From the IMG/VR virus record IMGVR_UViG_3300034684_000116, positions 1-42,252 of that record: a stretch of DNA of 42,252 nt; one strand, written 5' to 3'. This document shows, in pieces, positions 22,256 through 42,039 of this stretch. The notes under the pieces were generated by a model, which was given only the letters and a program-made list of their open reading frames with translations, was not told the DNA's origin and made no database searches. The DNA comes from a virus. The translations under genes and the position numbers were made by a program. The stretch's first letter is position 1; the number at the start of each line of letters is the position of its first letter.

Positions 22256-24643
22256 TTAACTATTAACCAGCACGGCATGCGGTCCTCCACCAATGGACCG
22301 CGCTCTGCCGCCTGATACAAACATAACTTCAGCTGCAGCACCCACACGCTTCCTAATAGGATACGCAAAAGTAAGAGCTAATGCATCAGCTCTGTCAGGG
22401 CTTGGCATCTTACGCACCTTCTTTATGGCCTGCTTCGACTCAAGCTTCATCTTACCAGTGCCCCTGTGGTAGTCGTAATACGGCGTCACCAAGTCGTCAC
22501 GCAACTTTCTATCGTCAGGTATGGCACCACCGCTCTTGAGCCACTCCTTCATCTCATACCACATTTCCATACGCTTATTGGCGAGCTCTGGGCGGCTCGA
22601 TGCAGCAGCACCATTAACACCTACAGTCTTATCACTTAAACCCATGCGCCGTAACTGGTCTACCACACCTGCGCCCACACCAGTTACATCAACGAAGATC
22701 TTATCAGCATTTCGCTCTACGGCGAATCTATATATCTTGTCAGCGTATTCAAGAGTATCGATGTCCATGCCCTCCCATAACTTCTCAGAATAAAGACCTT
22801 GCCGCAGGAACAAACAACTACTGTCATCACCAAAGTAACTTACATCAGCACCAAGTATTACAGGAGCGAAGTTGTACTCAATTTCGTGTATATGTCTATT
22901 TACGGCGGCCTCCACCAACTCCAGTGGTATGAACTGCTGCACCGAGGCGCTCGGAAATTCACCAAGAACTCTTACTCTATATTGGTCACTGTCCTCGCCG
23001 TACTCCTGCTTCATTAACTCTATATATTCTTTAGTTACGAGCGGTGAATCAAGACACGAGAAAGTGTACGTATCCCACAAATGACGGTTAGAATTGAATG
23101 CCTCATAGAAGTACCCAGTTACCATTGTTGGGTTACCAGTCATTACAACTCTTGCGTTGCTGGTGGTGAGTGTACCTCTCATGACCTCGAATATCTCGTT
23201 AGGTACCTCGGCAGCCTCATCTATCAGAAACATGAGGTTCTTAGCATGGAACCCCTGTAATGCACTTGGCTGGTCACGGCGTGCTGTACGAGCCACGGCG
23301 TATTGCTTCTTACCACATCCTTCTATGGTAACACGATCCTTAGTGACAATAGTTGCGTCGGCCATGTCCTTGGGCATCTTCATACGCCATGAGTCTATTT
23401 CTGACCACAACACGTCGTTGAGCTGGTGAGCTGATGGTGCTGTACATGGTATCTCTACATCTAACCTTGTCCAAAGATACCACAGTAGAGACCATGCCAA
23501 AGTTGAAGTGTTGTGTGTTGGCACAAAGTCCTCACCAGCCAGGTACATATGGTCTGGTGCCTCAACCTCGATACACATACTTTCTTTCATGCCAACTTCT
23601 TCTATACGATCAATCCAGCGCTTGAGATACCTATCCTGGACATTGTTGTGCAGGTTCTTTTGTTTTCTACTGACGTAACCTAACTTTGTACCAGGTTTGA
23701 AACGGATAGTTACATTGTAGGCATCGTTACACTGGACTTTGTAGCCATCTTCGTCAATATAATGTGCTTTTTTTGTTGCTTTTTGTGCTATGGCAATACC
23801 ACCAAGAGACCTAACTAACCATACAATATCGTCTCTAAGTTGTGAACTCGTAGTTGTGTATACACATATACCACTTGGGGCAATGTATCCATCGGTGTCA
23901 ATCAGACCACGCAGCAACTCGAAACGGTCTTCTATAGAAGAATATTTGTATATATCAGGAATGTATCTATATGGTGATGTGCAATCTAATAAACCAAGCT
24001 CTCTTAAATGAGTTATACATCCTCTGCAGTTAATTCTATTGTTATCAACAAACGAAGCATCTACTCCAATTTCTATGAGATGCTCGTATATCTCAATCTC
24101 TGGTTTAGATATTGTTCCTCTGTTCCTACTACCATCACCGATCCAGCAACCAACGAAGTATGGATGAAGTGGCAGCTCTTTCTTCTTGCGGAATGCCACA
24201 GGCTCATATGGTGGTATTTCTATTTGCCTTGCCATAGAGCGACCATTACTTCGTTTACACAGTGGGATCAACTCTTCAGTAGTTGCAATACGCCAACCAC
24301 GTGAGTAACGCCTCTCTTTGCGGGTCTTAACCTTCCACAGATGGTCACCTGTAGTCTCCAATGAACTGCCATCAGTGAAAATAACATTATATACCTTAAC
24401 CCTACCTAATGGATAAACAGCCTTTATTCTCGTTGGTGAGCCATCAAGACTAAATACATCGTCACCAACTTTAAGATCACCCCAGAATCGTGGTCCATCT
24501 GGTGTCACTGTAACTAATTCAAGCGGTACCCCTTTTCCGACCCCATGACCGCTCTTCACAGCAACATGTGCATTGTCCTTTGCTATAGCCCTCAAGAGCT
24601 TCTCCTGCTGATGTGTTGGCGTGGCACCAAAGATCTCTCGCAC
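22256..24643 (-). CDS. terL: Terminase large subunit interrupted by an intein
   Basis: ATPase-nuclease motor that packages DNA. The precursor as read from GTG 24643 has 795 residues, of which 38-378 are an intein; the spliced enzyme would have about 454. Extein motifs: Walker A GHGVGK|T split after Lys37, Walker B LMFLIDEAAEV (D475, E476), a coupling motif MTGNP, and nuclease acids D600, D652 and D750/D753 (SPDRADALALTF). Homology-like residues continue in frame upstream (NERLINKFAAYRKDPVLF) with no ATG, GTG or TTG, so the true start may be the ATT at 24698-24700, which overlaps the terS stop. Without splicing the ATPase site would be broken. Confidence 0.92.
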   Translation of the reverse strand: MREIFGATPTHQQEKLLRAIAKDNAHVAVKSGHGVGKGVPLELVTVTPDGPRFWGDLKVGDDVFSLDGSPTRIKAVYPLGRVKVYNVIFTDGSSLETTGDHLWKVKTRKERRYSRGWRIATTEELIPLCKRSNGRSMARQIEIPPYEPVAFRKKKELPLHPYFVGCWIGDGSRNRGTISKPEIEIYEHLIEIGVDASFVDNNRINCRGCITHLRELGLLDCTSPYRYIPDIYKYSSIEDRFELLRGLIDTDGYIAPSGICVYTTTSSQLRDDIVWLVRSLGGIAIAQKATKKAHYIDEDGYKVQCNDAYNVTIRFKPGTKLGYVSRKQKNLHNNVQDRYLKRWIDRIEEVGMKESMCIEVEAPDHMYLAGEDFVPTHNTSTLAWSLLWYLWTRLDVEIPCTAPSAHQLNDVLWSEIDSWRMKMPKDMADATIVTKDRVTIEGCGKKQYAVARTARRDQPSALQGFHAKNLMFLIDEAAEVPNEIFEVMRGTLTTSNARVVMTGNPTMVTGYFYEAFNSNRHLWDTYTFSCLDSPLVTKEYIELMKQEYGEDSDQYRVRVLGEFPSASVQQFIPLELVEAAVNRHIHEIEYNFAPVILGADVSYFGDDSSCLFLRQGLYSEKLWEGMDIDTLEYADKIYRFAVERNADKIFVDVTGVGAGVVDQLRRMGLSDKTVGVNGAAASSRPELANKRMEMWYEMKEWLKSGGAIPDDRKLRDDLVTPYYDYHRGTGKMKLESKQAIKKVRKMPSPDRADALALTFAYPIRKRVGAAAEVMFVSGGRARSIGGGPHAVLVNS
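23510..24532 (-). mobile_element. Class-3-type intein with LAGLIDADG endonuclease domain in TerL Walker A
   Basis: A 341-residue insert between Lys37 and Thr379 of the precursor. The N-terminal splicing block starts GVPLELVTVTPDG, so residue 1 is Gly, not the Cys/Ser needed by class 1 inteins. The class 3 WCT set is present: Trp103 two residues after the block B His101, Cys357 in block F (CIEVEAPDHMYLAG), and Thr376 before the terminal His377-Asn378, with Thr379 as first C-extein residue. Two LAGLIDADG motifs (FVGCWIGDG, D170; LLRGLIDTDG, D251) keep their acidic residues, so the homing nuclease may be active. Both ends of the insert are clean. Confidence 0.88.
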
Positions 24644-24695
24644 GAAGAGGACTGGGTCTTTGCGATAAGCAGCGAATTTATTGATTAAGCGCTCG

Positions 24696-25118
24696 TTAAT
24701 CTTCGTCTTCTGTCAGCTCCACAGTCAGTGGCTGTTCCTCGTCCATACACTTCTCAAGAGCGCTTAGTAGGCTGGCAGGACTGAAATTAACATTGACCTG
24801 ATCCACAAAGTCACCGCTTGCCTTGGCGAGGAGCTCACTGGCTCGTATTTTGTCCTTGTGGCTGGCTTCTTCATCGTTCATTATTCGTGCCCAGAAGCGC
24901 TTCCTTGCTGTTTGTGATTTGACTACCACATCTGCCTCTGGGTCGGCAGCACTTTCGATAGCAGTGTAAAAGTCATCCCTGAGGAGCAGTTCGTGGGCTT
25001 TCTTAGAGGGGTTGTCATAGCCCACCATACGACAGGCTTTAGCCACATCGTTAATGCCTGCTGCCACAAGGTTTATGACGGCTCTTTCCTTCTCGGTTAA
25101 GTTAGATACTGGATACAC
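24696..25118 (-). CDS. terS: Terminase small subunit
   Basis: A 140-residue protein upstream of terL. The N-terminus (LTEKERAVINLVAAGINDVAKACRMVGY) is a helix-turn-helix of the kind used for DNA recognition at packaging initiation. A helical middle and an acidic tail (ELTEDED) follow, the tail being the usual terL contact. It is read from GTG 25118, which abuts the ribosome site GGGGAG with almost no spacer; no better start is in frame. It is the first gene of the leftward unit, about 35 bases below promoter 25160-25188. Confidence 0.8.
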   Translation of the reverse strand: MYPVSNLTEKERAVINLVAAGINDVAKACRMVGYDNPSKKAHELLLRDDFYTAIESAADPEADVVVKSQTARKRFWARIMNDEEASHKDKIRASELLAKASGDFVDQVNVNFSPASLLSALEKCMDEEQPLTVELTEDED

Positions 25119-25159
25119 CTCCCCTCAAGTATAAAGCGTGGACTTTATCCACAGTATAC

Positions 25160-25188
25160 ATTATAAACAGATGGTGCATATTTGTCAA
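25160..25188 (-). promoter_or_regulatory. Consensus sigma-70 late promoter upstream of terS
   Basis: On the minus strand TTGACA (25183-25188), 17 bases and TATAAT (25160-25165) match consensus fully. A GTATAC site (25154-25159) abuts the -10 box on the downstream side, where a bound regulator would block the start site. It would drive the terminase-to-ejection-protein operon. Confidence 0.85.
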
Positions 25189-25203
25189 GTGGTGATAAAA
25201 ATT

Positions 25204-25229
25204 GAGCCACACCTGCGCAGGTGTGGCTC
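25204..25229 (-). terminator. Terminator-like palindrome upstream of the late promoter
   Basis: A perfect 13+13-base palindrome (GAGCCACACCTGC and its complement). On the minus strand it is followed by AATTTTTAT, a good terminator tail. It would stop leftward transcripts arriving from the early region before the late promoter. Confidence 0.7.
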
Positions 25230-25587
25230 GTGTTCGGTAACTCTATCCACATACCAAAGGAGGAGGTTTTGTGGTAGTTTAATTAAAGCACGTTGGGCTA
25301 TATACTGTCAAGGTACTAAAGTACTCGGAGTTCAAAATTACCATGAATGTGGGGGTGGGGTACCTTCGCCTCGCCCGAAGTTCAAAACCCCCTCCCCAGG
25401 GGGTGTATAGCATTGTATACAGAGCACACCCCATCTCATATTGCACTATGAATACAATGTATCATATACAATATGTGGCATATAACATAAAGAGTGTATG
25501 ATTGCATACAACATACACAAAACAGATATAAGAGCACATAGGCAAGATGAGCTTGGCTATGCGTGCTTAAGGTAAAGATAAAGTCAT

Positions 25588-25611
25588 CGTGTATACATGC
25601 ATGTATACACG
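25588..25611. promoter_or_regulatory. 24-bp perfect palindrome, candidate operator O1
   Basis: Half-site CGTGTATACATG and its exact complement. It contains two GTATAC cores whose starts are 12 bases apart (25591, 25603). It ends 9 bases before the -35 box of P1. A near copy with the same 12-base spacing lies beside the XRE regulator gene (29851-29874), so that regulator is the best candidate ligand. Confidence 0.7.
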
Positions 25612-25620
25612 AAAAAACAC

Positions 25621-25649
25621 TTGACAAACAAAACATAAGGGCTTATACT
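25621..25649 (+). promoter_or_regulatory. Early promoter P1
   Basis: TTGACA, a 17-base spacer ending GGGCT, and TATACT. The same spacer ending recurs in P2, P3 and the regulator's own promoter. It lies 32 bases before the first early gene. Confidence 0.85.
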
Positions 25650-25680
25650 ACAAGCACAAAGAACAAAGGGGGGGTTAGAA

Positions 25681-25989
25681 GTGATATACAAGGTCTATCA
25701 ATACAGTGGCCATATACATGACAAATACGGCTACATGGCCACAGATCAACGTTTCGCAGGCGAAGTGTCGATCAACCCAGAGATGGGCAAGGACCGACTA
25801 AAGGCTGAGCTTAGAGATATATTTCACCTGGGCGATGAGGTGCCTATCGACGGCCTGGAAGTTTTTGGCGACGACGAAGTCATGATCTTTGATCGCTTTA
25901 TCAATGGCCAGAGGATGGCCATAGGATATTTGAAAGTAGCGGAAGCAGCATTGAAGGCCGAAAAGGCCGCGGCCAAGGAGGTAAAATAA
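25681..25989 (+). CDS. Unknown early protein
   Basis: A 102-residue protein I do not recognise. It starts at GTG 25681 (GGGGGGGTTAGAA upstream), reads VYQYSGHIHDKYGYMATD and has a Lys/Ala-rich helical tail (AEAALKAEKAAAKEVK). It is the first gene after P1, a place often used for host-takeover proteins; that role is only a guess. Confidence 0.6.
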   Translation: MIYKVYQYSGHIHDKYGYMATDQRFAGEVSINPEMGKDRLKAELRDIFHLGDEVPIDGLEVFGDDEVMIFDRFINGQRMAIGYLKVAEAALKAEKAAAKEVK

Positions 25990-26196
25990 ATGACAGACGT
26001 TATGGACCTATCGACTGGGACAGTTTATTCCTACGACGCAAAACCCAAGGAAGCTTTAATAATGTGCTTTGAGCAAATATCAAAAGACAACTACAACACG
26101 TGGAGCTATAACTTCAATCAATCAATAGTTGAAACTGATCTTTGTTACAGTATTGGCGATATAGCAGTGTTTAAGGATGAAAGAAGCATAAAATAG
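25990..26196 (+). CDS. Unknown small early protein
   Basis: A 68-residue protein (MTDVMDLSTGTVYSYDAKPKE...) with no recognised domain. The AAGGAGG site within the end of the previous gene and ATG directly after its stop indicate an operon. A hairpin follows at 26202-26221. Confidence 0.6.
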   Translation: MTDVMDLSTGTVYSYDAKPKEALIMCFEQISKDNYNTWSYNFNQSIVETDLCYSIGDIAVFKDERSIK

Positions 26197-26201
26197 GCCG
26201 T

Positions 26202-26221
26202 GGGGTGCCATTAGGCACCCC
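26202..26221 (+). other. Intergenic hairpin
   Basis: An 8-bp perfect stem (GGGGTGCC with GGCACCCC) and loop ATTA. No T-run follows, so it is likely a weak terminator, attenuator or message-stabilising element. Confidence 0.55.
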
Positions 26222-26233
26222 TAACACCATTAC

Positions 26234-26276
26234 TTGATAAACACAAAACGCCTCATATATAATGAGGCGGAAGGAG
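26234..26276 (+). promoter_or_regulatory. Weak promoter-like sequence overlapping a hairpin and ribosome-site element
   Basis: TTGATA (26234-26239), 18 bases and TATAAT (26258-26263). The -10 box lies in and beside the loop of a 7-bp hairpin (26249-26255 with 26263-26269), whose 3' arm runs into GGCGGAAGGAG, a string repeated at several gene starts. Either use, or both, is possible. Confidence 0.4.
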
Positions 26277-26293
26277 ACAAGGAGGGGGTAGAA

Positions 26294-26758
26294 ATGAAGA
26301 TAACATTATCAGAAGAAGAAAAGAAACGACTGGGCATTGAATCTTGGAGCAACACACAAGCTCGGCTATATGCATCAGATATAGCAGAAAGTGTGCTCTT
26401 TATATATGAGCATATATGCCAACGTGACGCGCGCCCACGCCACGCAATAACAACAGCGCGCAATTACGCGCGAATGATAGAGCTAAAAGCTCCAGAAAGC
26501 TATATCGAAGAAGCACGACAAGCGCTAATATGGGCATCAGAAGCAGCAAAAGAAGCAGCAGTCGAAGCAATATTGCTCGATGATCCGTCTGCACATTGCG
26601 CTGCTTCTGCAGCAGTGCACGCGGCATCGCTTGATGACAATATGATATTTCACGCAATGGCGGCAACATATGAGGCGCGCAGCGCGGCATTTTACGCGCG
26701 CGACGAAATACTAAAAAAACAAAAACAAGAGCAAAAGAAGGGGGTAGAGCAAATATGA
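26294..26758 (+). CDS. Imm5-like all-helical protein 1
   Basis: A 154-residue protein, almost wholly alpha-helical and Ala-rich. The segment DARPRHAITTARNYAR and the repeated AAKEAAVEA / AASAAVHAA pattern resemble the Imm-5-like immunity-protein domain that turns up as orphan genes in phages. ATG 26294 follows GGAGGGGGTAGAA. A related protein is encoded at 31558-32145. Role in the phage unknown; defence or toxin neutralisation would be speculative. Confidence 0.5.
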   Translation: MKITLSEEEKKRLGIESWSNTQARLYASDIAESVLFIYEHICQRDARPRHAITTARNYARMIELKAPESYIEEARQALIWASEAAKEAAVEAILLDDPSAHCAASAAVHAASLDDNMIFHAMAATYEARSAAFYARDEILKKQKQEQKKGVEQI

Positions 26759-27012
26759 AGATAACACAAAAGTTTCATGACAAATTAGAATTAGCTAAAC
26801 AGAAAGGCTTCAAACGTGTATACGTAGTAATAGGCAAATACATGAGCACTACATATTGCTACTTTGTCGATATTGATGAATTATTGCAATTACCAATCGG
26901 CGCAACTTATAACGCACCACAACGTTGGTCGTCGCGCTGGACTGGACACCCCAACACCCGCCAAGCTACATCAACAGATATAAAATATAGCGAAGTATTA
27001 AACCTACAATAA
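26755..27012 (+). CDS. Unknown early protein
   Basis: An 85-residue protein (MKITQKFHDKLELAKQKGFKRVYVVIGKYM...) with no recognised family. Its first codons and upstream sequence (GGGGGTAGA..ATATGAAGATAACA) nearly repeat those of the previous gene, which suggests a duplicated start segment. It overlaps the previous stop by 4 bases. The late part mentions GATYNAPQRWSSRWTGHP, possibly a small basic patch. Confidence 0.55.
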   Translation: MKITQKFHDKLELAKQKGFKRVYVVIGKYMSTTYCYFVDIDELLQLPIGATYNAPQRWSSRWTGHPNTRQATSTDIKYSEVLNLQ

Positions 27013-27016
27013 TAGA

Positions 27017-27048
27017 AAGCCATGGGCGCTGAACGGCGCTCATGGCTT
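27017..27048 (+). other. Long intergenic hairpin
   Basis: An 8-bp perfect outer stem (AAGCCATG with CATGGCTT) continues into six inner pairs, two of them G-U, with loop GAAC. No T-run. It is probably a message-processing or stability element between early genes. Confidence 0.6.
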
Positions 27049-27081
27049 ATAGGAGTTGGAAAGAAGCAGTAATAAAAATAT

Positions 27082-27102
27082 CCGCCGAAAAGGCGGAAGG
27101 AG
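27082..27102 (+). promoter_or_regulatory. Hairpin fused to ribosome-site element
   Basis: CCGCC-GAAAA-GGCGG hairpin whose 3' arm is part of GGCGGAAGGAG. The next start codon is 27116. The same 11-mer occurs at 26266, 28247, 31539 and 38124. Confidence 0.5.
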
Positions 27103-27115
27103 GAGGGAACAAGAA

Positions 27116-27439
27116 ATGAAAAACTGGGAAGAAGCGGCGCTTAGAATAGCAGAAGAAGCAATAAAGAGATATGGGAACAACAAGCAAGGAGCAGAAAGAT
27201 TTATATTTAATGAAGCATGCGACTGTAACGAGGTAAAACACAGCACGCTATCATGTCAGGCCATATTAGACGCATTGTTTACAGACCACAAGGCACTTGA
27301 AGAGGCAAAAAAACAAATGCGTAATGTGTATAAAGCATCGCCGTGTTTGGAACATACAGCAAGATCATTAGTGCTTGCTATGATATACAACGAAGCAATA
27401 GAATATTACAACAAAAAAGCAAAAAAGGAGGAGAAATAA
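27116..27439 (+). CDS. Helical early protein, paralogue of the 32370 product
   Basis: A 107-residue, charged helical protein. Its pattern WEEAALRIAEEAIKRYG ... LVLAMIYNEAIEYYNKK lines up along its whole length with the protein at 32370-32690 (WIETAIEIAGSAFYGY ... LAFWIIYTKAMEHYRYI). No known family. ATG 27116 is chosen because the GGCGGAAGGAGGAGGG element lies just upstream. Confidence 0.6.
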   Translation: MKNWEEAALRIAEEAIKRYGNNKQGAERFIFNEACDCNEVKHSTLSCQAILDALFTDHKALEEAKKQMRNVYKASPCLEHTARSLVLAMIYNEAIEYYNKKAKKEEK

Positions 27440-27440
27440 A

Positions 27441-27683
27441 ATGTCTCACTTTTACGGAGAAGTGCACGGGCAAGCTAAAACACCAGCAACAAGGCGCGGA
27501 AGCAAGGCAAGTGGCCTTGAAGGTCACCTAAGAGGCTGGAACATAGGGGTTAGAGTTGTTTTAAAATACAAAGAGGGTATTGGAGACGTAATCCACATAT
27601 ACAGGACAAGCGGAAGTAATAACGTAGATAACGACGTGCTGATTGCAACACTAAACGAAGATGAGGTGAAAGAAATCAGTTAA
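27441..27683 (+). CDS. Conserved small phage protein
   Basis: An 80-residue protein starting MSHFYGEVHGQAKTPATRRG, then SGLEGHLRGWNIGVRVVLKY. I recall this pattern (MSHFYG.. followed by a RGW.VGVRV strand) in short uncharacterised proteins of many phages. It begins right after the previous stop, with AAGGAGGAG upstream, and is followed by a strong terminator. Confidence 0.65.
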   Translation: MSHFYGEVHGQAKTPATRRGSKASGLEGHLRGWNIGVRVVLKYKEGIGDVIHIYRTSGSNNVDNDVLIATLNEDEVKEIS

Positions 27684-27695
27684 GGCTATAATAAA

Positions 27696-27729
27696 GGGAG
27701 AGGAGGACTACTCCTCTCCCTACTTTTTT
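27696..27729 (+). terminator. Rho-independent terminator
   Basis: A perfect 10-bp stem (GGGAGAGGAG with CTCCTCTCCC), loop GACTA and then TACTTTTTT. It ends the first early gene group. Confidence 0.85.
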
Positions 27730-27804
27730 ATTGTAGCTCAACAAATACCGCATTTTATTTAATGAAACTCAAGGCGGAAGGCGGTATTCGGAGGAGGTGG
27801 TCGC

Positions 27805-27843
27805 GTGGGGGAAACAACAGGCGGAAGAAGGCCAAGGTCATGA
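27805..27843 (+). CDS. Short leader ORF coupled to the zinc-ribbon gene
   Basis: GTG 27805 has an ideal GGAGGAGG site and opens a 12-residue frame (MGETTGGRRPRS) whose stop overlaps the next start as ATGA. The following gene has a weaker site of its own, so re-initiation is plausible. It is not recognised as a protein family. Confidence 0.35.
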   Translation: MGETTGGRRPRS

Positions 27844-28241
27844 GGTGCAAGGTGTGCGGCAAAGAATTACCACATGGTGATGTATTAGAGGTTGACTGTG
27901 GGGCTAAGATCGAAGTATGCCACAATTGCGCGCGAATAATAAGGGAGGCAAGTAAAATGATAGAAGAAGAGAAGGTTTTCGTTTCTGAGGCAGCAAGGGA
28001 TTATTTGCAGTCAGACGAGCTAAGGGAGGCGTTCTGCGGGGATTGTCCATGGAACATATACCATCCTGGGTATTTCAATCCATTGTCAAGCACGGTTGAT
28101 CCGCCGTGGAACGAGTGCCCGGCGGATCTCGACATATCAAGCGATAAGTGCTACCACAAGAGCGACTATGAGGAGATAGTTGCGCTCTTGGCGGAGGCCG
28201 ACGACGTGGCGGGGATGCGGAAGGTGGTGAGAGTTTTATAG
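27840..28241 (+). CDS. Cysteine-rich, zinc-ribbon-like early protein
   Basis: A 133-residue protein. The N-terminus has C3-x2-C6 and C27-x2-C30 (MRCKVCGKEL...EVCHNC), a treble-clef or ribbon pattern. A second Cys group lies around CGDCPW and ECPADL...KCYHK. Function unknown, nucleic-acid or protein binding likely. ATG 27840 overlaps the stop of the leader ORF. A terminator follows. Confidence 0.6.
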   Translation: MRCKVCGKELPHGDVLEVDCGAKIEVCHNCARIIREASKMIEEEKVFVSEAARDYLQSDELREAFCGDCPWNIYHPGYFNPLSSTVDPPWNECPADLDISSDKCYHKSDYEEIVALLAEADDVAGMRKVVRVL

Positions 28242-28259
28242 CAATAGGCGGAAGGAGGC

Positions 28260-28289
28260 GGGCGCCACAGCTCGTGTGGCGCCCTTTTA
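28260..28289 (+). terminator. Rho-independent terminator
   Basis: A perfect 10-bp GC-rich stem (GGGCGCCACA with TGTGGCGCCC), loop GCTCG and TTTTAT. A GGCGGAAGGAG copy (28247-28257) sits just before it without a following gene, so that copy may be a relic of a lost gene. Confidence 0.88.
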
Positions 28290-28688
28290 TTATGGCCGCA
28301 GAAACTTGTATACTGTGCATTGTATATTGCTCTTAAGCAAAAGAGTCCACACGAGCGCCACTCATAAAAACGTGTAAACCCGCACCACGACTGCTTATAT
28401 ATAGGAATGAAAATTGTATTACCACAAATCGAGGCGGTGACTCCTTAGGTGACATATATACACAGCTCGTATGTGGTAGAAATAAAAAAAAGACCACAAG
28501 ACAGCTCTCTCTTGTGGCTTCCTAAAAATTGTATACAAAAAACAATGCTCAAAAATCGGTGACACCTGGGGACACATGTGTGACACTTTAGTTATGCCAG
28601 TATTACTGGTATTTGCAAGGCTTTATAGGGGCCGTGACACTGTGACACCAAAACGAAATGGCCGTGACCCCTTTTTTGGAAAGAGGTG
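28290..28688. other. Non-coding control segment
   Basis: No plausible gene of normal size. It contains GTATAC sites at 28308 and 28531, an inverted pair TACCACA...TGTGGTA (about 28412-28479), a leftward terminator (28484-28517) and the left half of the GTGACAC repeat cluster. A 13-codon ATG frame at about 28407 is possible but unsupported. Confidence 0.6.
28484..28517 (-). terminator. Leftward terminator of the control island
   Basis: On the minus strand, CCACAAG and CTTGTGG form a 7-bp stem with a 10-base loop, followed by TC and eight T residues (complement of 28484-28491). It would end transcripts from the gene at 28689. Confidence 0.75.
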
Positions 28689-28925
28689 TCACAGCCCGTC
28701 GAAAATCGTCCCAACCCTTGCAATCACCGTTTGGTCAACATTGGTCACAGGTGTCACACAGGTGTCACCATGTGTCACGCTTTTTGCCTCTTTGCGTGGT
28801 TTATCAACATTATAGGACATTTCGGTGATTATTCCCTTCTTTTTTAATTCGTGGAGTATTAAATTCGGGGTGATTTTAGCCTTGCCTAACATTTGGTGAC
28901 ACCTCCCAAAATAGGGTAGTGTCAC
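28559..28925. repeat. Iteron-like GTGACAC/GTGTCAC repeat cluster
   Basis: Ten exact copies of one heptamer in 367 bases. GTGACAC starts at 28559, 28580, 28634, 28642 and 28896; its complement GTGTCAC starts at 28686, 28751, 28762, 28772 and 28919. Near-matches occur at 28664 and 28743. The left group points one way and the middle group the other. It may be a replication origin, partition site or operator array for the overlapping gene. A single GTGACACC also occurs at 36382. Confidence 0.85.
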
Positions 28926-29243
28926 CAAATTGTGTATACACTCCTTGCTTTCTATGCCAACCAAGCTTTCCGTTCTCCCGTAGAACGGCATTTTGTTTTT
29001 TGCATACAATACACAACCATCATTTTCCACTCTGTGGAACGTATTTCCACCAAATAAACCATCGTTCCTAACAGTGATCCAACCACACTGCTCTCCTACT
29101 GTGGTCACCGTATCATCATCATAAAGACTGTTCCATTTTTTTGAGTTTTGTTCCATTGTGTGGAAGGGGTGTTTCCCAGCCCTTGTGGCAACCGAATTTG
29201 AGTTTTCTCTAACGCTTTTCGTAGTTAACATAAATCCGTTCAT
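28689..29243 (-). CDS. Unknown gene in the repeat cluster, two possible starts
   Basis: A 184-residue frame from ATG 29243 (GGGAGGCTTAGGGC upstream), with an internal ATG at 28892 that also has a good site (GGGAGGTGTCACCAA) and would give a 67-residue protein (MLGKAKITPNLILHELKKKGIITEM...). The helical C-terminal part could be a winged-helix DNA binder. The N-terminal part (VTTVGEQCGWITVRND) is not recognised and is rich in short palindromes. The repeats run through its 3' end and flank the internal start, suggesting autoregulation. Which form is made is unclear. Confidence 0.5.
   Translation of the reverse strand: MNGFMLTTKSVRENSNSVATRAGKHPFHTMEQNSKKWNSLYDDDTVTTVGEQCGWITVRNDGLFGGNTFHRVENDGCVLYAKNKMPFYGRTESLVGIESKECIHNLVTLPYFGRCHQMLGKAKITPNLILHELKKKGIITEMSYNVDKPRKEAKSVTHGDTCVTPVTNVDQTVIARVGTIFDGL
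28891..28930 (-). promoter_or_regulatory. Hairpin covering an internal start codon
   Basis: On the minus-strand message a perfect 12-bp stem (28919-28930 with 28891-28902) encloses a 16-base loop that contains GGGAG. The 3' arm includes the first two bases of ATG 28892. In DNA the same arms are an inverted pair of GGTGACAC sites. Folding would hide the internal start until ribosomes from ATG 29243 open it. Confidence 0.6.
28970..29000 (+). terminator. Terminator-like hairpin
   Basis: CCGTTCT-CCCGT-AGAACGG followed by CATTTTGTTTTTT on the plus strand. It would stop rightward read-through into the control island. It lies inside the long form of the minus-strand gene. Confidence 0.5.
29025..29165. 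repeat. Two 15-bp TTCCA-N5-TGGAA palindromes
   Basis: TTCCACTCTGTGGAA (29025-29039) and TTCCATTGTGTGGAA (29151-29165), 126 bases apart, share arms and part of the centre. They look like binding sites of another dimeric regulator. They fall within the long frame of the 28689-29243 gene. Confidence 0.5.
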
Positions 29244-29422
29244 GCCCTAAGCCTCCCTGCTTTTTTTCTACACTTCACCCTAATGCTCATATTAAATACG
29301 TAAAGTCATCACTAATGCGCATTATATTATTACGCCGTTCGCCGTCTTTTCTTGTGGTGCTTGTGGTATTCAAGTAGACACTACCCCACACTTATTCTAC
29401 CACCCCATCCCATAAAAACACT

Positions 29423-29471
29423 TAGGACCACAGTCCTATTTATCTCCCTACCAATTAAGACTGTGGTCCTA
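29423..29471 (-). terminator. Hairpin after the XRE regulator gene
   Basis: A perfect 13-bp inverted repeat (29423-29435 with 29459-29471) with a 23-base loop. On the minus strand it is followed by AGTGTTTTTATG. It lies 15 bases after the regulator stop, so a terminator or attenuator is likely. Confidence 0.65.
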
Positions 29472-29486
29472 TGTTGTCCATGTTAT

Positions 29487-29780
29487 CTACTCTTCTTCTT
29501 TGCTCTCAGTTGGCCATTTCTCAGTCAACCACCTTAAGTGCTGTGGTATCTTTACTGTTATTGTCATCCCTCCCTCAACGTCCCGCGGCAACAAGAACCA
29601 CCACATCGGCATCCCATACGCCAACGACACCTTCCGCAGCATCGACATCGACGGTGTGCGTCTTCCACCTTCGATGTCTGCCATATACTGGGGATGTATC
29701 CCCAGTAATGTGGTAGCCTCGGCCCGCGACAGGCCCACCATCTCCCTGGCTCTTTTGAGCCTCCACCCAATATCTTCCAT
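29487..29780 (-). CDS. XRE-family helix-turn-helix regulator (Cro/CI-type)
   Basis: A 97-residue protein. Residues 7-61 are a Cro/CI-type five-helix domain (RLKRAREMVGLSRAEATTLL then PQYMADIEGGRRTPSMSML). The C-terminus (MTITVKIPQHLRWLTEKW) is short and strand-forming, perhaps a dimer part. No peptidase domain, so it is not a LexA/CI cleavable repressor. The start ATG 29780 has AAGGAGGGGTAGT upstream; a longer frame upstream has no such site. It is divergent from P2/P3, with operator O2 between, so it probably controls the early promoters and itself. Confidence 0.8.
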   Translation of the reverse strand: MEDIGWRLKRAREMVGLSRAEATTLLGIHPQYMADIEGGRRTPSMSMLRKVSLAYGMPMWWFLLPRDVEGGMTITVKIPQHLRWLTEKWPTESKEEE

Positions 29781-29819
29781 ACTACCCCTCCTTATCTTAT
29801 ATTGTAAGTCTTCGTATAT

Positions 29820-29849
29820 ATTATAAGCCACCGTGCCCATAAAAGTCAA
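29820..29849 (-). promoter_or_regulatory. Promoter of the XRE regulator gene
   Basis: TTGACT (29844-29849), an 18-base spacer ending GGCT, and TATAAT (29820-29825). Operator O2 abuts its -35 box. Confidence 0.7.
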
Positions 29850-29850
29850 T

Positions 29851-29874
29851 CGTGTATACACGAATGTATACATG
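29851..29874. promoter_or_regulatory. Candidate operator O2 between divergent promoters
   Basis: CGTGTATACACG followed by AATGTATACATG. Two GTATAC cores start 12 bases apart (29854, 29866), the same spacing as O1. It ends 8 bases before the -35 box of P2 and sits directly upstream of the regulator's promoter. Confidence 0.7.
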
Positions 29875-29882
29875 AAAAGGGC

Positions 29883-29911
29883 TTGACACAAAAACCAGTA
29901 GGGCTTATACT
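29883..29911 (+). promoter_or_regulatory. Early promoter P2
   Basis: TTGACA, a 17-base spacer ending GGGCT, and TATACT; followed by ATAGGTACTAAAG. Confidence 0.85.
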
Positions 29912-29973
29912 TTGATAGGTACTAAAGGTTTGGGTTGTGGAAATAATGAGTATAAGGAATTGAATAAAAGGGC

Positions 29974-30002
29974 TTGACAACCAAAACAAACGGGCTTATA
30001 AT
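29974..30002 (+). promoter_or_regulatory. Early promoter P3
   Basis: TTGACA, a 17-base spacer ending GGGCT, and TATAAT; followed by ATAGGTACCAAAG, almost the same initial bases as P2. It lies 32 bases before the 30035 gene, the same distance as P1 from its gene. Confidence 0.85.
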
Positions 30003-30034
30003 ATAGGTACCAAAGATAAGGGGAGGGATGTGGA

Positions 30035-30343
30035 ATGAAAACAGCACCAGAAGAACCACGCACCACCAGAGAGCAACGGCTCATAGACGGAGGTTGGAGG
30101 ATCTTAGCCTCAGCCAACGACAGCGTCTACGTTGTGGAGTCACCGTACAGAGACCTACAGGTTCTTCACTTCTACTTTGACGCCGCCAGTAATACGCCCA
30201 TGGTCGAAGGATACTTCACAAGTTCCTTCGGTTTTAAGGCGCGGAACGAGCTACTCAACGATCCCCAGCGTTTTGTGGAAGAGTTTTATGTGCACTGCGG
30301 CGGCATAGACGCCGATTGGTGTACAAAAGAAGAATACTTATAA
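30035..30343 (+). CDS. Unknown early protein
   Basis: A 102-residue alpha/beta protein (GWRILASANDSVYVVESP, HFYFDAASNTPMVEGYF) that I do not recognise. First gene after P3, with GGGGAGGGATGTGGA upstream of ATG 30035. The C-terminus has two Cys (VHCGGIDADWC). Confidence 0.6.
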   Translation: MKTAPEEPRTTREQRLIDGGWRILASANDSVYVVESPYRDLQVLHFYFDAASNTPMVEGYFTSSFGFKARNELLNDPQRFVEEFYVHCGGIDADWCTKEEYL

Positions 30344-30344
30344 A

Positions 30345-30967
30345 AGGAGGAGAGTAATGTGGCTAAGATAATTAAGAAAAGAAAGTTCTACAATGAAGAA
30401 AAGGCAGTAAAAGTCACAAACAAGGATGACATGGTAGCCATAAACTTTGCAGCACTGGCCGCAGCCACCCCCACATTTGACGACCATCCTTGGGAATATA
30501 TTTGTATACGAGAGGGTGTGGTGATTGGCACCGACAGATGCAGAATACATCGTGCTAAGTTAGAAACTAAAATTGAGGACGGACTTTACGAGCTCATTAA
30601 AAGCACAAAAAAGGAATGCGTCATCGAGCGCATCAAAGACGACGAGGGTTATCCCTCGCAGAGGGCCATTGACAAATGTATGAATGTCGAAGGACATAAG
30701 TTAGGGATTGTAAATGAACTATTTTCTATTTTACCTGCCACTTTAGTTTATCTTGTGGGCAAGAATGGGCAGGCAATGAGGCCCGAATATATCATCGATG
30801 CATGTAAACTGATGTCTTCGGGTCATGTTATTGTTACGTTGCCCACCGACCCTAATTGCGGAGTTCACATTGAACATACAGATGGCACTATGGAGGCTTT
30901 TATTATGCCTGTTACGGTGGACAATGAAAAAATAAAAATATTAGAAGGAGGAGAGTAATATGGCTAA
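30345..30967 (+). repeat. 22-bp direct repeats flanking the clamp-like gene
   Basis: Bases 30345-30366 and 30946-30967 are identical except for one base (GTG versus ATG at the start codon). Each contains the ribosome site and first codons. The second copy opens only an 11-codon frame (30960-30995, MAKTRSKGGGK). It looks like a gene cassette duplicated or inserted at a start site. Confidence 0.75.
30359..30958 (+). CDS. Sliding-clamp-like (DnaN-fold) protein
   Basis: A 199-residue protein. Residues 47-66 (YICIREGVVIGTDRCRIHRA) resemble the clamp strand that reads gG.iatD..R. The end, 140-185 (MRPEYIIDACKLMSSGHVIV...FIMPV), strongly recalls the last domain of bacterial DnaN, including the closing IMPV. 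It has about half the length of host DnaN, so it may be a reduced clamp, a decoy or a clamp-derived regulator. It starts at GTG 30359; the ATG two bases earlier is out of frame and stops at once. No polymerase gene is present. Confidence 0.5.
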   Translation: MAKIIKKRKFYNEEKAVKVTNKDDMVAINFAALAAATPTFDDHPWEYICIREGVVIGTDRCRIHRAKLETKIEDGLYELIKSTKKECVIERIKDDEGYPSQRAIDKCMNVEGHKLGIVNELFSILPATLVYLVGKNGQAMRPEYIIDACKLMSSGHVIVTLPTDPNCGVHIEHTDGTMEAFIMPVTVDNEKIKILEGGE

Positions 30968-30996
30968 AACAAGAAGCAAAGGAGGAGGAAAGTAAT

Positions 30997-31158
30997 ATGA
31001 CAAAGACAATTCGGCAGTATTTAAAGGAAGCCTTGGGCAGTTACAGTAGAGAAGAGGACGCCGAGAGGTTGTTAATGAGGCTTTACCTTGAGAGGAAGGG
31101 TTTATTGGACGATTTCGAGAAATGGCAAATAAGACTATTTACAGAGGAGGATGAATAA
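30997..31158 (+). CDS. Unknown small early protein
   Basis: A 53-residue charged helical protein (MTKTIRQYLKEALGSYSREE...FTEEDE). ATG 30997 has GGAGGAGGAAAGTAAT upstream and lies directly after the stop of the 11-codon relic. Not recognised. The next gene follows at once with its ribosome site inside this gene's end. Confidence 0.55.
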   Translation: MTKTIRQYLKEALGSYSREEDAERLLMRLYLERKGLLDDFEKWQIRLFTEEDE

Positions 31159-31159
31159 A

Positions 31160-31435
31160 ATGGTTGAGCCAATCGAGTTTTATGTTATTAACTACAACGG
31201 TGAACGCATTCCAGTAATACCGAACGATGATTTGACGTTTAGGTCTACTGACGGACGTAACTGGTCCATATGTGAAGAAGGCCTACGCCTCAACGGAGAA
31301 TTGCTTTCTGACGACGAAGTATCTATCAACCACCCTGGCCCGCAGGATTATTATTGGATGCGGGCAATACATGAGTTTGACGAGGAGGAATTTCCCCCTC
31401 TGTCGTATCCGATACCAGGTGAGGAGGATGAGTAA
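31160..31435 (+). CDS. Unknown acidic early protein
   Basis: A 91-residue, acidic protein (MVEPIEFYVINYNGERIPVI...YPIPGEEDE) with no recognised family. ATG 31160 is preferred over ATG 31151 because the GAGGAGG site abuts the earlier codon and is 9 bases from this one. A long hairpin follows. Confidence 0.55.
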   Translation: MVEPIEFYVINYNGERIPVIPNDDLTFRSTDGRNWSICEEGLRLNGELLSDDEVSINHPGPQDYYWMRAIHEFDEEEFPPLSYPIPGEEDE

Positions 31436-31437
31436 GG

Positions 31438-31485
31438 ATATAGCCCGACCCCCCTACCACTACTGTGGTAGGGCTCGGGCTATAT
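31438..31485 (+). terminator. Long bipartite hairpin
   Basis: Outer stem of 11 bp (31438-31448 with 31475-31485) and inner stem of 9 bp (CCCTACCAC with GTGGTAGGG) with loop TACT. No strong T-run follows, so termination is uncertain. GTATAC lies just downstream, then the direct repeat CAAGTTAT-CG-CAAGTTAT and TATAAT, perhaps a weak promoter for the next gene. Confidence 0.6.
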
Positions 31486-31557
31486 TGGTATACAGGTTAC
31501 AAGTTATCGCAAGTTATAATCGCCCGTAATATATACGAGGCGGAAGGAGGAGCAATT

Positions 31558-32145
31558 ATGATGATCCCCATGACTAATTTCACCCTGCTTCGTAAGGCAG
31601 GGTTCAATAAGAAAATGTATAGACGCCTCGCTAAGAAACTTGGCGGAATCAAGAACTATGGACCACATATGCCAATTCATATCATTAAAATACTCAACAC
31701 TTGTGGCCTGTATAGTGCTGTGTGGGCATTGCGAGCATGTCCATGTGCAGAGAAATTTGCTTTAATGTTTGCGTATGATTGCGCAGAGCACGCACTCAAA
31801 GGGCAAGACCATCAATTTAATGAAGTGCTAAAAATAGCGCAACATATCGTCCATGATGCTGCTAAAGCTGATGATATATACGCAGCACAAAACACGCTTC
31901 AAGAAGCCCTACAAAAAGTCACTACTCCGAGCGATGCGTTGGCCACCACCATGCTACTTAAGCTTATAAGCAAACCTCCATTAGAAGCACCGTATTCCGT
32001 GGCTACGCGTGCTGCGGCATATGTGGATCATATAGACTCTCATCGCCACTGCCCTCCGTGGATAGCGTTGCAACATGAGATGGAGTGGCAAGAGCAGCAC
32101 TTCATAGAATTATTAAATATGGAGGATGATAAAAATGAGAATTAA
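31558..32145 (+). CDS. Imm5-like all-helical protein 2
   Basis: A 195-residue protein. The segment SAVWALRACPCAEKFALMFAYDCAEHAL and the late EWQEQHFIELL match what I recall of Imm-5-like immunity domains (WAL...C.CAE....FA.DCAE, then a terminal WQ). The middle is Ala-rich helical. It is a distant relative of the 26294 product. ATG 31558 follows GAGGCGGAAGGAGGAGCAATT. No toxin gene is adjacent, so the role is open. Confidence 0.55.
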   Translation: MMIPMTNFTLLRKAGFNKKMYRRLAKKLGGIKNYGPHMPIHIIKILNTCGLYSAVWALRACPCAEKFALMFAYDCAEHALKGQDHQFNEVLKIAQHIVHDAAKADDIYAAQNTLQEALQKVTTPSDALATTMLLKLISKPPLEAPYSVATRAAAYVDHIDSHRHCPPWIALQHEMEWQEQHFIELLNMEDDKNEN

Positions 32146-33599: not shown

Positions 33600-35246
33600 A
33601 TGACAATCCTTGCTTGGACGAAAGGACAGCGCATCTATGTGCGCACGCCGTTTGAATACAAGGACATCATGAAAGGCATTACGGGCGGAAGGTGGGATGC
33701 GAAGGAAAGGGCATGGCATTATCCGCGATCCTACCGTACGCTTGCTGAAATCATGAAGTCGCTCCCTGGTCCTATCGGTCTAAGCGAGGATCTAATGAAA
33801 TTACTTGAGGAAGGGGATCCTTATGAGAAGGCCGCATCGATAAAGGAGGCAACCGACCTGCCCAATCCTCCTATATGCAAGGGCAACGATTGGCTACACC
33901 AGCGTAGGGCATATTGGTGGGCGAAGGACTTACCAGCAGTCTTGCTTGATATGTGGATGGGATCAGGCAAGACCCGCACGGCCATAAATATTGTGCAGAA
34001 CTGGTATCCACAGGGCAACGCACGAGCGTTGATAGTGTGCCCCCCTAACGTGGTGCCAGTGTGGGAAGAACAAATAGCTCAGCACGCAGTTATACCATGG
34101 AAGGTCACATTGCTCCCAGCAGGTAAGCCCATTCCTAAAAGAGCTGAGATAGCAGAGCAGGCGTGGCAGAGCACTGAACATGGAGCTATCACAGCTCTGG
34201 TATGCAATTACGAGGCGGTGTGGAGGGGGGTATTGGGTGAGTGGATACTTAGCAAAGAATGGGATGTAGTAATAGGTGATGAGCTACACCATATTAAAGC
34301 GCCAGGGTCTAAACAGTCTCTATTCTTTGCTAAGTTACATAAACGAAGCAAGCGTCGTCTTGGCCTTACTGGCACCCCTCTCCACGATGGTCCATTAGAT
34401 ATCTACGGCCAGGCCCGTTTCTTGTGTCCCGAGGTGTTTGGCACAAGCTTCGCTAACTTCAGGGCAAGATACGCTCGCATGGGTGGCTACGGCGGATACC
34501 AAGTATTAGGGTATCAGAACCTGGATGAGTTTTACGAGAAATATAACTCCTTTACGTTCACCGTAAGTGCCGACGAAGCACTACCAGACCTGCCGCCCAT
34601 TGTATTTGAACGTAGAATCTGCGAGCTGAGCCAAGAGGAAAGGAGGGTTTATAATGCGCTGGAGCAAGATTTGATAGCTCAAATAAAGGATGGTTTTGTC
34701 ACCGTCAACAATGCCCTGACAAAACTGATCAAGTTGCAACAGGTAACGTCAGGATACGTCAGGGATGATGACGGTATCGACAGGCATGTGGGCGACAGCA
34801 AGAAACAATTACTTGCTGAGGTTTTATCAGACCTGCCCAAGGACGAGCCAGTTGTGGTCTTCTGTCGTTTCACACATGACCTCGACGCAGTGCATGAGGT
34901 AGCAAAGCTGGACGGTAGGAAAAGTTTTGAATTATCAGGGAGGAGGCGAGAGCTTGAAGAATGGACAAACTCAGGAGGAGGTGAGGTGTTAGCAGTACAG
35001 TTAAAGGCAGGCGGCGAGGGTGTGGCAATGTACCGAGCAAGGTATGCCATAGATTACAGCTTGAGTTTCTCACTTGGTGAATACAACCAGACTCGTAGCC
35101 GCCTGCAGCGACCAGAGCAGACAAGACAAGTAATCTCAATAGCCCTGGTTGCGGCAGGCACTGTGGACGAAAAAATCTACAAAGCACTCAAGCAAAAAGA
35201 AAAAGTAATTGAATCAATCATGAGGGGGTATGGTGGTAATGAGTGA
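33600..35246 (+). CDS. SNF2/SF2-type DNA helicase (translocase)
   Basis: A 548-residue protein. Residues ~10-42 (IYVRTPFEYKDIMKGITGGRW and WHYP) resemble the HARP-like DNA-binding motif of annealing helicases. Walker A MGSGKT is at 120-125, the DExH box DELHH at 227-231 and motif III LTGTP at 256-260; the second RecA domain has VVFCRF and an arginine-finger motif with Q-x2-R-x-R (NQTRSRLQR). It probably remodels forks or recombination intermediates. First gene of the replication block. Confidence 0.85.
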   Translation: MTILAWTKGQRIYVRTPFEYKDIMKGITGGRWDAKERAWHYPRSYRTLAEIMKSLPGPIGLSEDLMKLLEEGDPYEKAASIKEATDLPNPPICKGNDWLHQRRAYWWAKDLPAVLLDMWMGSGKTRTAINIVQNWYPQGNARALIVCPPNVVPVWEEQIAQHAVIPWKVTLLPAGKPIPKRAEIAEQAWQSTEHGAITALVCNYEAVWRGVLGEWILSKEWDVVIGDELHHIKAPGSKQSLFFAKLHKRSKRRLGLTGTPLHDGPLDIYGQARFLCPEVFGTSFANFRARYARMGGYGGYQVLGYQNLDEFYEKYNSFTFTVSADEALPDLPPIVFERRICELSQEERRVYNALEQDLIAQIKDGFVTVNNALTKLIKLQQVTSGYVRDDDGIDRHVGDSKKQLLAEVLSDLPKDEPVVVFCRFTHDLDAVHEVAKLDGRKSFELSGRRRELEEWTNSGGGEVLAVQLKAGGEGVAMYRARYAIDYSLSFSLGEYNQTRSRLQRPEQTRQVISIALVAAGTVDEKIYKALKQKEKVIESIMRGYGGNE

Positions 35247-36480: not shown

Positions 36481-38160
36481 GTGCTTGACTACATACCAAC
36501 AATAAGGGGCCTGTGGTCATACATATGGACGCTGAAGGATAAGCTATCCTATTGGTTCCCGTTGGACAACGAAGGCATCCAAGATGCCAAGGGCTATGTC
36601 GAACGCCACAAAGACGAAACCGACATGTATATAGCTGTATCTTTCTTTGATTCCCAGGGGGACATGACCAAGCGTGGCAAGGCATCCGACTCTGCTGGGA
36701 TCTACGGTCTTTGGCTTGATATCGATGTTCAATGTATGATGCGCTCAAGGATCGACCTACCACGAACCACAGCAGACGCTATAAAGATCCTCGAGGATGG
36801 ACCCAAACCGTCCTTGGTAGTCAATTCTGGCTATGGTCTCCAGGCATGGTGGCTCTTTAATGAGCCATTTGTATTCAAGACTCCTGAGGATAGGTTGACG
36901 GCATCTAAACTTGCTGGTGCATGGAACGAATGGTATCGGTTAAAAGCGTTGAAGTTTGGTTGGGGCCTGGACAGCGTAAGCGACCTCGCTCGGGTGATGA
37001 GGATCCCTGGCACGTATAATTTTAAGGGTGACTTTCCAGTTCCTGTCACAATAACAGAAGATAACAAGTGTGTATATACGCCATCAGATTTATCAGAACT
37101 TATCCCACCCGAGGCATGGGATGCTCGGCGCGGCACAAGTGATCCTTCGATTTCTGTAAATATAGTGATCAATCCCAACGCTGATTATCCTCCACAGTTT
37201 TCCGCTATGTGCGCAAACATCGAAAACTTCGCTAAGACGTGGACACATAAAAAACCTATCAAGGATAGGTCTAACAGTGGCTATGACTTAGCCATTGCAT
37301 CTTATGCAGCTATGGCTAACTTGTCTGACCAAGAAATATGCGATCTACTGATATGCCACGCAAGAGAGCAAAACTTTCCTATTAAGCGCCTTGAATACTA
37401 TCAAAGGACCATAGCCAAGGCTCGTGAAGGTGGCCAGCTTGGTCTTGCGCCAGAAGAAACACATGACGTATCCTCTATCATTCCTAAGCTGAAGGACCTG
37501 AACGCAAGTGGTCAGGATACTGTATATGCTGAGAGGAAGTCTGTCTTCGCTCTTTTGTCGGTGCTATTCGGTATACAGGTATATGATTTCATAGCCTACA
37601 AAACAGACCCGCGCGAATATGAGCTTTTCACAGAGAACGGTAAGGTGTTTTTTCATAAAGGACAAGAAGACCTCGCTACGTCGAACGCCTTTAGAAAAAG
37701 AGTTGGTGATATAACCAAGGTCTACCCACCAAGGTATAAAACCGAAGACTGGGACGTTATTTTACAAGCGTTGAGGTTTGCGGCCCGTGACGTTGATATA
37801 GGCCCAGAACTATCAGACGAGGCGCAAACAAGGATGTGGGTTGAAAGCTACCTTGCCAACCATCCACCGCTTCCCGCGGATAAAATTAGGGATGCTGTCA
37901 TGGCAAAGAAACCATTTATTACTGAGAACGGAGAAACATGTTTCTTCATCGAAGAGTTGAAGTCGTGGTTGGCATCACGAGGAGAGAAGCTTCAGATGCA
38001 AAGATTAGGGTCAAAACTACAAAGGATAAATATTCAAAGCAAAAGAGTAAATTACAAATCTACTATTGGAGGTAGGATGCAAGCAAGGGTGTGGGTAATC
38101 CCATCAGAGGTTACAACATCTGAGGCGGAAGGAGGCGATGACAATGACAGAGACGAATGA
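36481..38160 (+). CDS. Archaeo-eukaryotic-type primase (PrimPol/RepB-like)
   Basis: A 559-residue protein. Catalytic-core motifs: GLWLDID with D80/D82, NSGYGLQAWW (116-124), and DLARVMRIPGTYNFK (168-182), as in phage AEP primases. A middle helical domain follows, and the C-terminal ~70 residues (WLASRGEKLQMQRLGSKL) look like a winged helix. It would lay primers, possibly with polymerase activity. It starts at GTG 36481 with AAGGAGGTGAAGAT; the ATG two bases earlier is out of frame. The end carries the ribosome site of the next helicase. Confidence 0.85.
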   Translation: MLDYIPTIRGLWSYIWTLKDKLSYWFPLDNEGIQDAKGYVERHKDETDMYIAVSFFDSQGDMTKRGKASDSAGIYGLWLDIDVQCMMRSRIDLPRTTADAIKILEDGPKPSLVVNSGYGLQAWWLFNEPFVFKTPEDRLTASKLAGAWNEWYRLKALKFGWGLDSVSDLARVMRIPGTYNFKGDFPVPVTITEDNKCVYTPSDLSELIPPEAWDARRGTSDPSISVNIVINPNADYPPQFSAMCANIENFAKTWTHKKPIKDRSNSGYDLAIASYAAMANLSDQEICDLLICHAREQNFPIKRLEYYQRTIAKAREGGQLGLAPEETHDVSSIIPKLKDLNASGQDTVYAERKSVFALLSVLFGIQVYDFIAYKTDPREYELFTENGKVFFHKGQEDLATSNAFRKRVGDITKVYPPRYKTEDWDVILQALRFAARDVDIGPELSDEAQTRMWVESYLANHPPLPADKIRDAVMAKKPFITENGETCFFIEELKSWLASRGEKLQMQRLGSKLQRINIQSKRVNYKSTIGGRMQARVWVIPSEVTTSEAEGGDDNDRDE

Positions 38161-40360: not shown

Positions 40361-40365
40361 TCATC

Positions 40366-42038: not shown

Positions 42039-42039
42039 T

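Follow-up and report, generated by a model that had tools for sequence, protein, structure and literature searches.

A dense GTGACAC array in a conserved non-coding island: a probable phage replication origin

The viral record IMGVR_UViG_3300034684_000116 of IMG/VR (42,252 nucleotides; its whole length is referred to here as the window) contains a non-coding control island of about 1.1 kb (28300-29450) which, on comparative sequence evidence, is probably the replication origin of the phage, with ten copies of the heptamer GTGACAC serving as iterons for a phage-encoded initiator. A preliminary description of this DNA had already raised the possibility of an origin, and that reading is now supported by constraint at the level of the DNA itself, by association with a replication module, by spacing that is conserved under a changed motif, by the lack of any above-chance promoter within the array, and by analogous arrays at the initiator or primase genes of other phages. 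Iteron origins are well known; initiators are poorly characterized in phages that combine a PrimPol with an SF1 helicase and lack an O-like protein.

The array and the island around it

The exact units, five per strand, were recounted and lie where they had been reported, at 28559, 28580, 28634, 28642 and 28896 (plus strand) and at 28686, 28751, 28762, 28772 and 28919 (minus strand), all within 367 bp (28559-28925). They make up 10 of the 13 GTGACAC copies in the window, and since merely three lie elsewhere, against a chance expectation of 4.4 for the whole window, the word can be regarded as confined to the array, unlike the sites of a dispersed regulon. The earlier statement that such a count goes far beyond chance holds good: this is the densest cluster of any heptamer in any 400-bp stretch of the window, and the top count for any heptamer in 30 shuffled windows (dinucleotide-preserving) was only 3-4 per 400 bp. 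Inclusion of the near-units GGGACAC (28569) and GTGACCC (28664) would bring the total to 11-12. A short unit is therefore repeated above chance in a compact non-coding segment, as in origins of the iteron type.

The units have a marked internal order. A left triple on the plus strand (28559-28586; units at 28559, 28580 and, between them, the near-unit at 28569) is spaced at intervals close to a helical turn (10 and 11 bp); then come central units (28634-28692; plus at 28634 and 28642, minus at 28686-28692) and an inverted right triple on the minus strand (28751-28778; unit 5' ends at 28757, 28768 and 28778), spaced at 11 and 10 bp, so that helical phasing is present within both triples. To the right of the right triple is an AT-rich segment (28785-28885), a candidate unwinding element, which reaches 70% A+T per 60 nt, a value that is modest against the background of the window; an AT-rich stretch occupies a similar position in two of the relatives discussed below (65% in G006, 72% in L160). 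The last two units, themselves inverted, are part of a hairpin (28889-28932; DNA dG -14.2 kcal/mol, z -5.3).

DnaA boxes are moderately above chance in total, with the sole exact match in the window at 25145 and a single-mismatch box in the island at 28801. The cumulative GC skew, suggested earlier as a check, is consistent with an origin in this part of the genome, although its minimum (25168) is 3.4 kb to the left of the array and coincides with a switch of gene direction, by which it is confounded.

The repeats occupy the extent originally given for them, but the conserved element is larger, at about 28300-29450. This can be seen from the nearest relative, G001 (contig 3300034683_000400; loci L002, L005 and L155), which together with the window makes up clade A and which retains all ten units. 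Most 50-nt bins of the island are 84-100% identical in G001 (one bin is at 72% and one at 80%), and the core (28400-28950) is at 96-100%, compared with mostly 62-96% for the flanking genes. Terminator-like hairpins are found on both sides, as had been noted: at the left boundary, one on the plus strand (28260-28284) and one on the minus strand (28493-28518) facing leftward transcription, and at the right boundary, past an XRE-family gene, one that is bidirectional (29423-29438). No DNA similarity was found among phage records. A second palindrome, TTCCACNNNGTGGAA, is present twice in the island (29025-29039 and 29151-29165), with a one-mismatch copy to the left of the array in G006 (L149:2303).

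Part of the island is overlapped by an open reading frame of 184 aa on the minus strand (ORF 28689; 28689-29243), which the preliminary description took to be a gene. We think it probably non-coding. It has no Pfam, PHROG or NCBIfam match, and in a codon-by-codon comparison with G001 13 of its 22 changes alter the protein (pS 0.080, pN 0.030, omega 0.37). Silent-site differences were 0.20-0.60 for most of the genes compared (PrimPol 0.38; the pair entered as 30359 is a comparison of paralogues), although the small ORF 27056 is likewise low (0.118); because the silent sites of ORF 28689 differ at 0.08, against 0.42 in the adjoining XRE gene and 0.50 in the adjoining gene 27762, it is the DNA itself that appears to be constrained. 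From these sequence comparisons, 28300-29450 is most likely a cis-acting element to which the open frame is incidental. The low divergence might alternatively reflect recent exchange of this segment, although the XRE and 27762 genes on either side are not similarly low.

Sister phages with one layout and different words

Five more distant relatives (G002, G006, G004, G005, represented by L305, and L160) constitute clade B; in shared genes the first four have about 75-85% DNA identity to the window. The ends of the G002 contig repeat, and it is therefore probably a complete circle. (The ends of the window also contain repeats, 1-361 matching 40553-40913 at 95% identity and 1214-1640 matching 41830-42252 at 79%, as if the assembly had run past the circular join into a related strain, or there were a real duplication.) The GTGACAC array is absent from all five. 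In the homologous position, likewise upstream of this replication module, clade B has instead units that vary among GTGAGTAC, GTGAGGAC and GTGAGTGA at equivalent positions, in the order and orientation found in the window; in G002 and G006 they are borne on a non-coding island of about 1.1 kb between the upstream small genes and the homologue of gene 30359. Loss of the repeats from close relatives had been named beforehand as evidence against an origin. Conservation of the heptamer does extend to all ten copies in G001 and stops there; because clade B keeps a homologous array of another unit, with its spacing, what has been lost is the word and not the array.

The correspondence is close. Window units starting at 28559, 28569 and 28580, then 28634 and 28642 (plus), 28692 (minus), 28757, 28768 and 28778 (minus) and 28925 (minus; there is also a plus unit at 28896) align with G006 units starting at 2504, 2514 and 2525, then 2579 and 2587 (plus), 2697, 2708 and 2717 (minus) and 2848 (minus), and the central minus unit has counterparts in L160 (5242) and G002 (921). 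The window, G006 and L160 have exactly the same successive spacings (10, 11, 54 and 8), and G002 differs only in having 55 in place of 54; across the five clade B relatives, G004 and G005 included, none of these spacings departs by more than 1 bp. The surroundings of the right triple have changed in L160, where a long stem between the arms of the array is also weakened (z -2.8, compared with about -6 for the window and for G006), yet the units have been kept; it is apparently the units, as sites, on which selection acts.

In the phage represented by L160, where the terminase is of another kind (phrog_9) and is accompanied by an HNH-like ORF, these are nonetheless followed directly by the array and by the clamp-like gene described below. 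Its packaging module has been replaced right up to the proposed origin island (L160:2048-4454), and from the sequence the array would seem to have travelled with the replication module across this swap. Terminase genes in the group vary in another way: that for the large subunit in the window (22256-24643, minus strand) contains an intein-like insert with a LAGLIDADG homing endonuclease, which is present in some relatives (L003, 816 aa) and absent from others (L008 and L009, 475 aa).

When the centre block was used to scan for a third lineage, the known group alone stood out, with one clade B genome gained (L305). A pattern scan for arrays of the clade B type in other phages gave seven matches, all of which read as ordinary sequence and were set aside. 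G014, a distant relative by its terminase, has dense repeats of the CAGGTC/ACCTGA type at both contig ends (L157:31-325 and L158:19494-19788).

That the layout has been conserved under a changed word is, in our view, the most interesting part of the system, and it suggests that the repeats and the protein reading them changed together between sister phages.

Candidate initiators and the repressor

What protein might read the units? The conserved early genes to the right of the array, all on the plus strand where coordinates are given, include one that we tentatively call sliding-clamp-like (30359-30958; a weak C-terminal match to DnaN, E 0.06), one for a Gam/DUF7307-like protein, and the genes of the replication module for an SNF2-like helicase (33600-35246), a PrimPol-type primase (36481-38160; phrog_2478 in its N-terminal part) and a UvrD-type SF1 helicase (38138-39778) that overlaps the end of the PrimPol gene. 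Among the window proteins scanned there was no O-like initiator, no ParA/ParB-like protein and, in agreement with the preliminary description, no integrase.

First among the candidates is the PrimPol, which, as far as structure prediction can indicate, is most likely the initiator by virtue of a C-terminal winged helix (about residues 445-540; 37813-38100, plus strand). Between the clades its residues 221-440 are 96% identical, compared with 55% for residues 441-559. The C-terminus is predicted as a winged helix with pLDDT 80 and pTM 0.69 (elsewhere the full-length model is too poor to use); by fold it resembles other phage primases, and no significant fold match was found in the PDB. The presumed recognition helix is largely conserved between the clades (QRLGSKLQRI / QKLGARLQRI), and 7.5 kb separate the array from the gene for the PrimPol, so that the closeness of origin to primase-initiator gene seen with P4 alpha and in PICIs is not found here. 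The primase of Dinoroseobacter phage R5C matches the winged helix and has the same primase-helicase order, with no comparable dense array in that phage. The units could be read instead by either of two small helix-turn-helix proteins (40142-40360 and 40345-40899), which have 50-53% identity between the clades. No relatives of the PrimPol were found in bacterial genomes, and a search for the host by means of TerL gave as its only relative a protein of Duodenibacillus, 33% identical.

Some indication of the company kept by such arrays comes from a scan of viral DNA for three closely spaced copies of GTGACAC, which matched at least 120 stretches; as the heptamer was itself the criterion of selection, the sample can indicate what tends to accompany these arrays and not how frequent the word is at origins. 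Among the 120 matches listed, 13 hold at least five units in both orientations, and of these six overlap O-like initiator genes (L101, L089, L072, L044, L074 and L119) and two abut primase genes (L133, and L082, in which the primase is of phrog_2478 like that of the window). With a control heptamer matched in composition and likewise pseudo-palindromic, three of 120 loci had clusters of this sort, two of them in what are apparently coding repeats. The mixed-orientation arrays at L133:2915-3289 and L082:1167-1384 are dense, and there are dense GTGACAC arrays, likewise of mixed orientation, in L024, L034 and L088 with no identified replication gene alongside. Our search of the literature for the GTGACAC heptamer as an origin element found nothing relevant.

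The XRE-family regulator that had been noted beside the array is a protein matching HTH_31/HTH_3, encoded to its right on the minus strand (29487-29780 for a start at MEDIGW, with a longer ORF to 29891). G001 has a counterpart, a 94-aa ORF in L002; between its XRE and clamp-like genes G001 also has an extra ORF (L002:5620-5940, minus strand), ParB/Srx-like by eye and with no Pfam or NCBIfam match. Clade B, where the array persists, yielded no XRE gene. The natural candidate for the XRE operator is, from its distribution, likely to be the palindrome TGTATACA, of which the window has 11 sites against 0.6 expected. One tandem pair (29853-29872) lies between the promoter for the XRE gene (29849-29820, minus) and an early promoter (29883-29911, plus), beyond which is a second early promoter with a perfect TTGACA-17-TATAAT (29974-30002, plus); another pair (25590-25609) lies within 25580-25649, a diverged copy of the control segment at 29842-29911. 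In each pair the sites are four bases apart and directly upstream of a TTGACA promoter sequence. Because this 70-bp control segment is present twice, with 82% identity, the repressor probably controls two early operons. Single sites stand at the left edge (28530-28537, conserved in G001) and right edge (28933-28940) of the array, 403 bp apart in the window and in G001 too, through which the repressor may act on the origin as well. There is no TGTATACA in the first half of G002, which has the array and early genes and no XRE gene; in the window, the copies at 10029-10036 and 23857-23864 are inside structural or terminase coding sequence, far from the control regions.

Replication might accordingly be pictured as follows. 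The initiator, most likely the PrimPol acting through its C-terminal winged helix, would bind the GTGACAC units, open the AT-rich stretch beside the right triple and prime synthesis together with the polymerase of the host and two phage helicases, UvrD and SNF2. In clade A only, the XRE repressor would bind the TGTATACA sites of the early promoters and those on the two array edges, so that transcription and the origin would be held off together. A fuller proposal, that the sister lineages swapped the word of the whole array (GTGACAC versus GTGAGTAC) with its layout kept, in step with divergence of the PrimPol winged helix, and that the bracketing operators of clade A let one protein silence both early transcription and origin firing, is one that we regard as conceivable and, taken as a whole, rather doubtful. 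Two arrays with one layout and different words, together with two differing PrimPol winged helices, nevertheless form a natural pair, by which both the winged helix as an origin reader and the idea of a multi-site origin changing its word without losing function become testable.

Other readings of the array, and known systems

The alternative that survives best, though we consider it unlikely, is that the array is an operator cluster through which a transcription regulator, either the XRE protein or one of the helix-turn-helix proteins 40142 and 40345, controls early or late transcription. The XRE gene adjoins the array, terminators frame it, and the two helix-turn-helix proteins diverge between the clades as the units do. 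Moreover, clade B has a conserved leftward promoter at the right array edge (TTGACA-17-TAGAAT in G002; L146:1199-1171, minus strand), at a matching place in G002, L149 and L160, which would transcribe across the array. Against this, the array of the window contains no sigma-70 promoter better than chance, strong promoters being 0.9 kb away, and the units do not recur at other promoters. We also considered GTGACAC as the XRE operator and dropped the idea, since TGTATACA, at both early promoters, is the better candidate and XRE was not found in clade B despite the array there. The earlier suggestion of an operator array for the product of ORF 28689 is rejected, because the frame looks non-coding and was not found where the clade B array persists.

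Rather less probable is an origin of the kind suggested for pRN1 and phage BIP-1, in which the long inverted repeat would fold out and the GTG words would be starts for PrimPol priming and not iterons. The pRN1 PrimPol does begin its primers at GTG and depends on a large stem-loop (PMC4234260), the predicted folding of the array in both the window and G006 is much stronger than that of shuffled sequences, and the strong hairpin contains the last two units; but in L160 the units persist although much of the long stem is gone, phasing at 10-11 bp and a conserved spacing fit well with protein binding, and GTG alone leaves the fixed clade-specific extensions (ACAC or AGTAC) unexplained. The strong folding predicted on both strands, with the promoter beside the clade B array, could also suggest that the island encodes a structured non-coding RNA, such as a regulatory antisense RNA, with the repeats as its stems. 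This we think improbable, as the long stem is weakened in L160, a search of 24000-32000 against Rfam gave sub-threshold matches only, and no promoter better than chance enters the array of the window.

A partition site was another of the earlier suggestions. A centromere-like site of this kind, in a plasmid-like prophage, would accord with clustered repeats in a non-coding island, an XRE repressor and the failure to find an integrase, but is very improbable in view of the lack of a ParA/ParB-like protein among those scanned and the retention of the array by clade B without the XRE gene. That the repeats are a by-product of coding sequence in ORF 28689 can be dismissed, even though the frame is open in both clade A genomes with a mild purifying signal (the omega of 0.37), as four exact units (28559-28648) are wholly outside it and a fifth straddles its end, it differs less at silent sites than the other genes in the comparison, and it has neither a family match nor a clade B counterpart.

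How does the proposed iteron origin compare with known ones? The iteron word of the satellite phage P4, GGTGAACA, resembles GTGACAC and is not identical to it. As summarized in a later paper, the P4 alpha protein, a primase and helicase, binds origin repeats by a C-terminal winged helix (PMC4234260, citing Yeo, 2002; Ziegelin & Lanka, 1995). The candidate reader in the window is likewise a predicted winged helix at a primase C-terminus, but the primase is of the archaeo-eukaryotic PrimPol type and not TOPRIM, the helicase is a separate SF1 protein, and the gene is remote from the array. In the pri-rep-ori segments of PICIs (SaPIs), two sets of iterons are combined with an AT-rich region, and allelic Pri-Rep variants differ in sequence (PMC6092414). 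The window too has two sets of units and an AT-rich region; in PICIs, however, the sets flank that region and the origin is within the pri-rep-ori segment, whereas here the clearest AT-rich stretch is beside the right triple. Origins of the lambda O type have their iterons within the initiator gene, and in six unrelated phages (those listed above) mixed-orientation GTGACAC arrays are likewise within O-like genes, whereas the array of the window is in non-coding DNA.

The ORF904 protein of pRN1 combines a PrimPol with a winged helix in the corresponding place, and there is a large imperfect stem-loop in its origin; both pRN1 and BIP-1 have stem-loop origins with PrimPol-winged-helix replication proteins (PMC4234260). 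The window shares with them the PrimPol, the predicted C-terminal winged helix and a large imperfect stem-loop, but theirs are systems without iterons and with an SF3 helicase in the same protein, whereas our phages have iteron-like units and, in L160, a weakened stem. Finally, the divergent promoters and the tandem operators beside an XRE repressor gene are like those of the repressor-controlled early regions of temperate phages, with the difference that single operators (28530 and 28933) also bracket the proposed origin array, which suggests a simple way for an integrase-less phage to hold its origin off.
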